Shown: piece by piece, positions 48,101 through 63,690 of the stretch
Layout: each line of letters opens with the position of its first letter
How positions within the stretch are numbered: position 1 is the stretch's first letter
Source: Mesostigma viride
Taxonomy: Eukaryota > Streptophyta > Mesostigmatophyceae > Mesostigmatales > Mesostigmataceae
Length of the DNA stretch: 64,000 nucleotides
Direction of reading: 5' to 3'
Assembly: GCA_009746045.1 (NCBI GenBank)
Contig: RPFO01000392.1
Span: forward strand, 984,627-1,048,626
Position numbers and translations under genes: made by a program
The notes under the pieces: generated by a model
What the model saw: the letters and a program-made list of their open reading frames with translations, nothing else
Told to the model about the DNA's origin: nothing
The model's database searches: none

Positions 48101-51100
48101 AGACTAGCGCGAGAATGTTCCCCGAGCGGTACCGAGGATTCGCACCGTTAGACGACAGTTGTTGGTTCGTTTTGCGCAGTGTGGCGAGCATCGAACGGAG
48201 CCTGAACCCGCAGTCCAGGGTCCGACTGCCCATGTCCGGCGTTGGACACATCACACAACCACAACAACAACAACAACAACAACAACAACAACAACAACAA
48301 CAACAACAACAACAACAACAACAACAACAACAACAACAACAACAACAACAACAACAACAACAACAACAACAACAACAACAACAACAACAACAACCACAAC
48401 GACGACGACGACGACGACGACGACGACGACGACGACGACGACGACGACGACGACCACCACCACCACCACCACCACCACCACCACCACCACCACCACCACC
48501 ACCACCACCACCACCACCACCACCACCACCACCACCACCACCACCACCACCACCACCACCACCACCACCACCACCACCACCACCACCACCACCACAACAA
48601 CAACAACGACAACAGTTTACATATTCCCACGCCGGTTGTAAGGTGTCCGTGGAGGCGTACGGACACCGCGGAAGCTTAGTAACTACTCATTTCAACAAAT
48701 TCATAATAGTAGTAACTAGCCAGCATTCGCCGGCCACCGTCCATGGGAAATAGTTGCCGGCACGGCGCCGCCGGTCGAAAAAAGCCTAAACGAAGCACTG
48801 CCACTTATCCACCTGAAAGTTCCTCTTTGCTCGTGCCGGCCAGCTCCTGCTGCCTTGCTTCTAAGGCCTCTGGTCCATATGGGGTAGTCCGGGCACATGG
48901 TCCATATGGGGTAGTCCGGGCACATGGTCCATATGGGGTAGTCCGGGCACCTGATCCTTATTATTCCGTGAGCCACTTTCGTATGGGCCCATATCGGACC
49001 ACGTATGCTCATCTAACCCTGTCCCCCGCCCCCAGGTACCAGCAGCAGGTCGTGCAGCTCAACCGCCGCATTGAGGGGGAGCTGGCAGAGCTGCAGCACC
49101 GGCAGACGCAGGTGAGAAGAAGGTGCTGCACGGCGCATGTGAGGGATTGGTGCAGGCGATGGGCAGGATTACTGCAGCACCGGCAAACACAGGTAGGGTG
49201 ATGGCGCTTGCAAAGATCAGGTGTTCTGCAGCATCGGCAGACATAGGTCAGGGGGAAGCAATTGAAGGACACAGATTCCTGCAGCACCAGCAGGTGCAGG
49301 TAGGGGTTGACCCGCGATGGACAGGTAGCTGGCTGCAGGCTGGGGGCCGCGGGCATTGTGTCGGTTAACCAGCGGAGTCAAGTAGGGCCTGATTCGCCGT
49401 GCCCTCAGCCAGGCCAGGTGTGCCGGCACGTTTACCTGCACTACAGGGGCTCAAAGAACTTGGCCCTACAATGTGATCGGAAATCGTAGACTCACAATCG
49501 CAACGCCCCGCTGCAGGGGAGAGACCGGTAGCTGCGCCGATGTTGGGCAGCTTGGATATGTGAATGTGGAGTGCCCGATGGACTGAACACATGGCGGCCA
49601 TGCGTTGTAAAAATGCCAGCATCAGTCTCCTTCGATACTTCAAGCGCAGCTGCCAGGTTCGTGTAGGTGTGCCCATCCCAGAGGTATGCTGTCGCACATA
49701 CGTCGCCATCACGATGAAATGATGAGTCGTTGTCTGAAACTACGCGCATTGCTGCCACGCTTGTCATCCAGATGTCCTCGATATACCCTCCAGGATATGC
49801 CCTCCTGGATATACCCTCCCGGATATACCCTCCTGGATATACCTTGCTGTCCGTGCTGTGAGCAAGCTGGCACTGCACCCGTCGCTTGTGGTGTGATCGT
49901 TCTCAGTGGCATGCATCATGGAGCTCTGCATCCTTGTTCACTCACTATGCCGTTTTTGTCACAAAACCATATGGCTTTGCATGACTGTCTCTCCTCCACA
50001 CCCCAACTTTTCCTTTTTTTCTCCACTCTGGGTGTCTACCTGCCTGCGCTTACTGCTTACTGCAGTATTGACAACAGCATGCACCCACCCCCTGCCCCGA
50101 CCGTGCATTGTGGGGCCTCGGGTCCGGTCCTCCCCACTTAACCTCCCCCACTCCACCTGTGCAGGTGGAGAACGGCGTCCCCATGCTGGAGGAGCAGGTG
50201 GCGGCCGCCAAGGAGGCGCTCAATGACCTGCGCATCGCGCCGGGACGGTAGGTGCCATGTAGTCCAGTGGCTCATGTGCTGTGCTGCGTGCCGGAGCCTG
50301 CCGCGCCAGCTGTCAAGGCAGCCACCAGGATATGGACCCTGGAGCTATGCTCTGAACACTGGCATTGCTCCCCATGGTGCGACAAGCACAGCTGGAGGCA
50401 AACCTAGCGTCCACCCTAGCGGCACAGCTTGCCCAGGAACAAGGGAGGCGATGCCTCCTGAGGTCGACGCAGGGGGAGAGTCCAACAGCTAGCAGCTGGC
50501 TACAACGGGCAGTGTCAACGGCAAAGCGACGGACGGTTAGGTAGCACTTGTGTTTTTTTTATCGGCACATCCTCTGAGGTTGCTACCCTTGCCGGCTAAA
50601 GGCCATTCACAGGCTGCTACCCTTGATGGCTAGGAGCCAGGGGGAGAGAGGAGGGGGGGGGGCATTCAAAGGCACAAGTAAACTGTAAGCATATCAAGAG
50701 TAAGCAAGAGTGTTTTTGTTGCCGTTATGGTCGCGAAAAAGGGGGCACGGTGATGTGGTCATCGGCTTTCTCGCACCCACCTACATCGCACCTTGGTCTC
50801 GTTAGCCTAGAACCATGCGACACGGCCACATGGCGTTGCCACGGTGCCTGTTGTGGACAAGACGCTGAGTATGTCACGATGGTTTTGGTTTCTCCTTGCT
50901 TGGCTGCCCCTCCACTCCGGGACAGTCCGCCGAAATGGGTTTTATATTTCATGCATGTGTGCGCCATCGCATGTCTGCACTCGCTCTCTACGGCCCGTGT
51001 GGGTAGTAATGCCCGCTTTCTTGCCTGCTACGCTCCGTGGGTGACATGGCCCCTTCTTGTTCTTGCCTGCTGTGGCGTCTGCCCCCCAGGTACGCGGAGG

Positions 51101-62939: not shown

Positions 62940-63690
62940 GTGAGGCGGGGGGCAGGTTACCAATATTTTCAAGGATGGGGCGGAAGAGTGAGGTGAGGAG
63001 GGGGGCAGGGTACCAATATCTTCAAGGATGGGGCTGAAGAGTGAGGTGAGGAGGGGGGCAGGTTACCAATATCTTCAAGGATGGGGCTGAAGAGTGAGGT
63101 GAGGAGGGGGGCAGGTTACCAATATCTTCAAGGATGGGGCTGGAGAGTGAGGTGAGGAGGGGGGCAGGTTACCAATATTTTCAAGGATGGGGCTGAAGGG
63201 TGAGGTGAGGAGGGGGCAGGTTACCAATATTTTCAAGGATGGGGCGGAAGAGTGAGGTGAGGAGGGGGGCAGGTTACCAATATCTTCAAGGATGGGGCTG
63301 GAGAGTGAGGTGAGGAGGGGGGCAGGTTACCAATATTTTCAAGGATGGGGCTGAAGGGTGAGGTGAGGAGGGGGGCAGGTTACCAATATTTTCAAGGATG
63401 GGGCTGAAGAGTGAGGTGAGGCGGGGGGCAGGTTACCAATATTTTCAAGGATGGGGCGGAAGAGTGAGGTGAGGAGGGGGGCAGGTTACCAATATCTTCA
63501 AGGATGGGGCTGGAGAGTGAGGTGAGGAGGGGGGCAGGTTACCAATATCTTCAAGGATGGGGCTGAAGAGTGAGGTGAGGAGGGGGGCAGGTTACCAATA
63601 TCTTCAAGGATGGGGCGGAAGAGTGAGGTGAGGAGGGGGGCAGGGTACCAATATCTTCAAGGATGGGGCTGAAGAGTGAGGTGAGGAGGG
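62918..63690 (+). repeat. 53-bp minisatellite derived from exon 15 end and donor, about 14 copies
   Basis: The exon 15 end with donor (GCTGGAGAGTGAG|GTGAGGCGGGGG) is followed by units GGGGCTGAAGAGTGAG, GTGAGGAGGGGGGCAGG, TTACCAATATCTTCAAGGAT. Several units read GGGCTGGAGAGTGAGGTGAG, identical to the exon junction over 14-16 bp. All copies keep GAG|GTGAGG, a strong donor consensus. Confidence 0.95.

Follow-up and report, generated by a model that had tools for sequence, protein, structure and literature searches.

In humans, intron 18 of ABCA7 carries a VNTR whose 25-bp unit, present in about 12 to 427 copies, starts at the exon-18 donor. Use of the next unit's donor retains one unit and leads to a premature stop; this retention seems to affect about 2% of transcripts, and both skipping of exon 19 and disease risk are associated with long alleles, according to the relevant sections of the report on this locus (PMC5954066). 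The relevant passages of a comparative genomics study of Chlamydomonas describe unusually long introns and leave exon-end copies unmentioned (PMC8226300). Here, we analyzed a window of 64,000 nucleotides from the streptophyte alga Mesostigma viride (assembly GCA_009746045.1, contig RPFO01000392.1, positions 984,627 to 1,048,626 of the forward strand; coordinates below are those of the window), in which a first-pass annotation had noticed that the ends of five exons of one gene recur, together with the 5' splice site, as diverged copies in the following intron. Its remark that no named process has this pattern was too strong, since the anatomy of the ABCA7 VNTR, as far as those sections describe it, is similar (PMC5954066).

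The gene reads as a single open frame of 513 amino acids from 11 in-window exons on the plus strand (49036-62939), with GT...AG at every border. The frame continues into a twelfth plus-strand exon (64235-64365) just beyond the window end, in the next 10 kb of the contig, which was also fetched. Pfam at a threshold of 0.001 and PDB returned no match for the 513-aa protein; therefore, CEP90-like, a name that comes from the first-pass annotation, is kept as a presumptive label. The homologue search gave two matches, an unnamed fragment and a hypothetical protein of Cymbomonas tetramitiformis (P0001), the latter being the closest, with 42% identity over 92% of the query and an alignment that is gap-free over the first nine junctions. 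Five exons bear copies of their ends (49036-49111, 54761-54922, 59729-59894, 60560-60713, and 62740-62939; exons 5, 9, 13, 14, and 15 in the first-pass numbering), and six have no donor copy at threshold (50165-50247, 51090-51221, 54143-54347, 55750-55923, 57719-57807, and 58656-58754).

The exon borders were placed with a spliced aligner written for this analysis, whose initial splice matrices were trained on exon calls that included the CEP90-like gene. With the Cymbomonas protein, it returned nine donors exactly (50247, 51221, 54347, 54922, 55923, 57807, 58754, 59894, and 60713), and the same nine were exact again with matrices built on 26 exon calls made elsewhere than in this gene. A flat GT/AG model recovered 49111, 50247, 51221, 54922, 55923, 57807, and 59894 and shifted 54347, 58754, and 60713 by 2 to 12 bases (60713 to 60725); these three borders therefore rely on the donor motif. 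Donor 49111, whose junction falls within the gap-free stretch of the protein alignment, was placed by the flat model and not by the trained matrices. Donor 62939 lies past the end of the Cymbomonas protein and is supported by the reading frame, which runs on into the exon at 64235-64365; the borders of the other four copy-bearing donors draw on a 42% identical protein and on splice motifs. Judged by protein homology and frame, the coding border would be the outermost copy.

To score exon-end copies, the final 30 bases of each exon were aligned to the downstream intron by the Smith-Waterman method, with 1131 to 1191 other exon 30-mers as the control. The five introns of the first-pass annotation were borne out: donors 49111, 54922, 59894, 60713, and 62939 (5 of 11) scored 15 to 17 (empirical p 0.0009 to 0.0017), with the copies including the donor GT. 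The remaining six scored 7 to 11 and were not significant, 54347 being borderline (p 0.06; 0.046 with shuffles). Against dinucleotide shuffles, four of the five stood (p 0.002 to 0.006) and 62939 did not (p 0.12). None of the 10 acceptors of the gene was outstanding in the exon-edge test (lowest p 0.29).

The copies, all on the plus strand, differ in form from intron to intron. About 21 terminal bases of the exon ending at 49111 recur with the donor as three diverged copies at 49162-49319 (borders 49192, 49246, and 49299). Donor 54922 is spanned by a 41-bp unit repeated 4.5 times, which includes 17 exon bases (54906-55091). Short echoes at 41- to 82-bp spacing had been claimed after 59894; we found instead one good copy of about 42 terminal exon bases with the donor and the intron start, at offset 116 (59970-60044). 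The full minisatellites described after 60713 and 62939 are confirmed as 53-bp units in about 14 copies each, numbers that may be assembly-dependent in such near-identical arrays. The first (60784-61534) derives from the exon end and donor at 60713, and a diverged intermediate copy can be seen by eye between donor and array; the second (62927-63691, 14.5 units) straddles its donor with 13 exon bases and is followed by weaker copies to about 63910. The first-pass account lacked an acceptor-side array of 2.7 units of 79 bp (58444-58658), which reaches 3 bases into the exon starting at 58656 and, by eye, supplies two upstream decoy acceptors in a mirror image of the donor arrays. As a contrast case, a 32-bp minisatellite of 61 units (51697-53626) touches no border. 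The arrays within the gene are unlike one another in unit and length; introner elements, by comparison, are near-identical introns scattered over a genome.

Retention of the donor GT in most copies, stated by the first-pass annotation, holds for 29 of 33 entries in our listing, which merges some adjacent repeat units. Such retention could mean that selection keeps the extra donors to act as decoys or as alternative 5' splice sites, for regulated exon extension or as a switch to nonsense-mediated decay, and one copy (49192, offset 81) does provide an in-frame, stop-free option. We consider this selective reading, also raised by the first-pass annotation, very improbable. Of the 33 copies, 27 belong to the introns carrying the two 53-bp arrays, and since the units of these arrays are mostly near-identical, GT retention is not independent among them. 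Moreover, an in-frame stop precedes 31 of the 33, 49192 is the sole in-frame donor of the other two, and the best copy lacks a GT in 3 of the 13 donor cases of the wider survey described below.

Other features of the window were recorded alongside. The intron after donor 60713 also contains a perfect, loopless 66-base palindrome with 33-base arms (61730-61795), and a telomere-like CCCTAAA stretch is visible by eye at about 61640. Successive runs of ACA, ACG, and ACC triplets (about 49, 19, and 48 copies; 48255-48595) lie just upstream of the exon starting at 49036. Farther away, a long open frame at 3282-6650 encodes copia-type retrotransposon domains (integrase core and RVT_2), and one long open frame at 21011-21846 encodes a histone deacetylase domain (Pfam 6e-76). 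The latter lacks the first 67 profile positions, so the call must have missed an exon farther upstream.

The survey was extended to 59 introns in the 440-Mb genome (2243 contigs, one assembly), comprising those of the CEP90-like gene, 18 dynein heavy-chain loci (labeled L0xx), and one BT1 transporter. Dynein exons were found by Pfam search and their borders were set by spliced alignment to two kinds of reference, intron-poor in-genome paralogues and outside proteins, which agreed on 22 of 23 donor borders in L028-L035. The best named dynein matches include Apatococcus and Raphidocelis, both green algae. These loci are conserved genes picked by domain search, and hence a nonrandom sample in which several loci come from the same gene. 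The five BT1 introns have ab initio borders, and the Pfam match (PF03092, 1e-100) backs the whole predicted protein rather than each border. From the dynein set we dropped donor 1957 of L030, which the outside references left unconfirmed, and any intron next to an aligned exon shorter than about 40 bp; L026, L027, and L042 had no usable intron.

In a preliminary set of 18 exons, of which one belongs to the CEP90-like gene and the others to neighboring genes, 1 of 18 donors and 0 of 18 acceptors had a score of at least 15, the positive donor belonging to a weakly called minus-strand exon (110842-111031). The final count excludes, for unsecured borders, one HDAC donor, three of a sialyltransferase-like gene, six of a minus-strand gene (including the positive), and two of BT1. 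Ab initio gene models for 284 kb of the contig were also tried and rejected, because the chains merged genes and drifted; the exon-wise calls were kept as leads.

Exon-end copying is real and extends beyond one gene. Donor copies occurred in 13 of the 59 introns (CEP90-like, 5/12; dynein, 8/42; BT1, 0/5) and acceptor copies in 3 (0/12, 3/42, and 0/5, respectively). By comparison, exon-interior 30-mers had a copy in 0 of 3070 cases against the downstream intron and in 3 of 2391 against the upstream intron, and a mismatched control pairing 56 introns with exons of other loci yielded 8 of 2860 for exon ends and 3 of 2860 for exon starts. Outside the CEP90-like gene, the differences from exon interiors were maintained for donors (8/47, P about 1e-15) and acceptors (3/47, P about 1e-4), both values being optimistic since the interior 30-mers overlap. 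As an independent measure, Tandem Repeats Finder placed an array with at least 5 exon bases across 6 of 56 donors and 0 of 56 acceptors. The tandem arrays that include the donor GT are 54906-55091 and 62927-63691 in the CEP90-like gene, L029 (two donors), L039, and L023.

The first-pass annotation had proposed comparing exon ends with random exon and intron positions. Against exon positions, the pattern passes clearly (13/59 versus 0/3070); against intron positions, it largely fails. When 1725 intronic positions of the CEP90-like gene were compared with the kilobase that follows each, 37% had a similar copy there; the corresponding figures were 0.3% for 297 exon-interior positions, 5 of 11 for donors, and 0 of 10 for acceptors. 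The donor rate is therefore near the intronic rate, and the donors of this gene resemble intron DNA. Over the survey introns, a similar copy lies downstream of 907 of 3839 intronic positions. With each border treated as one random intronic point per intron, 8.3 donors with copies were expected and 13 observed (P = 0.035), or 4.9 and 8 outside the CEP90-like gene (P = 0.076). The corresponding upstream expectation for acceptors was 8.6, with 3 observed (P = 0.008), and 5.1 outside the gene, again with 3 observed (P = 0.18). Positional profiles agree: copies were found for 0 of 50-54 windows at 60 to 90 bases inside the exon, for 11 of 56 at -10 from the donor, and for 4 to 12 of 50-56 through the intron, and on the acceptor side for 3 of 56 at the border and 11 of 56 about 50 bases into the intron. 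Profiled in 20-base windows, the border did not stand out as a significant peak. These data point to duplication everywhere that is purged in exons, with a donor excess that is at most modest and part of which would be expected, since the exonic original cannot decay.

Could the duplications nonetheless start preferentially at exon-intron borders, for example if a structure or a break at the 5' splice site made borders hotspots? The mild donor excess (P = 0.035) points that way, as does the imbalance between donors and acceptors (13/59 versus 3/59; Fisher P = 0.013). Both signals weaken outside the gene in which the pattern was first noticed, where the donor excess has P = 0.076 and the imbalance P = 0.20 (8/47 versus 3/47). 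Paired windows flanking the donor on its exon and intron sides show no significant difference (8 versus 3 discordant, P = 0.23; 6 versus 3 without the CEP90-like gene, P = 0.51), and the same excess could arise if a conserved exonic copy stays visible for longer. We thus regard a border preference as unlikely, although the excess leaves some room for it. Of the first-pass suggestion of tandem duplication anchored at exon-intron borders, duplication across the borders holds, and recurs in other genes, whereas anchoring is not supported by a rate so close to that within introns.

The 16 copy events of the survey come in two shapes. The contiguous or near-contiguous class, with a spacer of at most 31 bases or a multicopy array, comprises L029, L039, L025, and five events in the CEP90-like gene. 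The L029 unit is 106 bp with about 30 to 44 exon bases, and L039 has three identical copies of a 99-bp unit across the donor, with 18 exon bases, and is therefore recent. In the spaced class (8/16 events), 41 to 136 unrelated bases separate original and copy; it comprises L028, L035, L037 and L038 (donor and acceptor each), L041, and the L034 acceptor. The L041 event is likewise recent, with 50 of 51 bases identical (36 exonic and 15 intronic) across a 52-base spacer. The weakest spaced cases, whose extent is loose, are L028 (25/30 identity) and the L038 donor (28/38). Pure slippage does not explain the eight events with unrelated bases between the copies; break repair in which filler accompanies the duplication would suit them better. 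Two further observations concern these loci. From position 1661 of L037, the exon end and its donor recur in further short echoes, seen by eye within about 60 bases after the main copy, which look like renewed duplication. Of the three introns in which an acceptor copy occurs, two (L037 and L038) carry a donor copy as well, where about 0.6 was expected, each copy lying beside its own border.

We propose, as the probable explanation, frequent local duplication that is purged in exons and tolerated across splice sites, where the exonic copy is conserved. The genome would often duplicate segments of tens of bases at short range, either directly in tandem, with some duplicates expanding to minisatellites, or with an unrelated spacer. 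Duplications within exons would break the protein and be lost, as the near-absence of copies of exon interiors suggests. Those that straddle a splice site would be tolerated because, if the outermost copy (the first of the donors or the last of the acceptors) is the one spliced, as we presume, the mRNA should be normal and the protein unchanged. The exon half of the original would remain under coding selection and decay would be confined to the copy, so that straddling events would stay recognizable longer than purely intronic ones. Introns would in this way lengthen by acquiring copies of exon edges. The process looks like ordinary copying hidden by splicing, and what sets it apart is chiefly its frequency. 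The acceptor deficit (3 versus 8.6) is not what symmetric tolerance would lead one to expect. More speculatively, and with about 1 in 5 donors bearing a copy of its own exon end, exon-edge duplication might be a main source of intron growth, with part of the copies made by repair 50 to 100 bases away with filler. Donors would be the more tolerant borders, since the first donor would be the earliest to be transcribed and committed, whereas an upstream acceptor copy would win.

Tandem duplication of an AGGT-carrying exon segment can also give birth to introns (Rogers model), and the copies could be remnants of such births. The raw material is shared, as the reports on this route describe, in their relevant parts, exonic tandem duplication with splice signals (PMC2891723 and PMC4974935). 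The order of the copies makes this origin extremely unlikely, even so. The model predicts the start of the next exon after the donor and the end of the previous exon before the acceptor, and among 50 introns 400 bp or longer these arrangements occurred 0 and 0 times; copies within 200 bp of their own border were found in 11 (donor) and 3 (acceptor) of the same introns.

Local duplication tolerated across splice sites, as proposed here, would have wider uses. Exon-edge copies serve as duplication fossils with the conserved exon half as the reference, so that one can read directly how often local duplication occurs, how large it is, and what signature its repair leaves. The arrays provide a natural experiment on the spliceosome's choice among many identical donors. 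They also carry a warning, as gene predictors can pick the wrong border in such genomes.

To conclude, a few described systems come close to this pattern. Among the matches listed from the open-licence literature, the passages returned contain no description of exon-end copies at such frequency. A 2007 paper cited in PMC3488318 is akin by its title, which links tandem arrays and splice sites. Rogers-type intron gain, as presented in parts of the reports on the potato RdRp gene (PMC4974935) and Drosophila (PMC2891723), likewise involves a short exonic duplication masked by splicing; unlike that process, existing introns are lengthened here and the order of the copies misfits intron birth. As in ABCA7, the tandem units of the alga include the true donor GT and offer further donors. 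ABCA7 is, in the sections concerned, one locus with a unit that starts exactly from the GT, whereas in the alga about 13 to 61 exon bases are copied too, the copies recur in other genes, and some are separated by spacers. The donor-spanning VNTR of ABCA7, as portrayed there, is thus a precedent for single arrays of this kind (PMC5954066), and the frequency of the copies and their spaced form look new.
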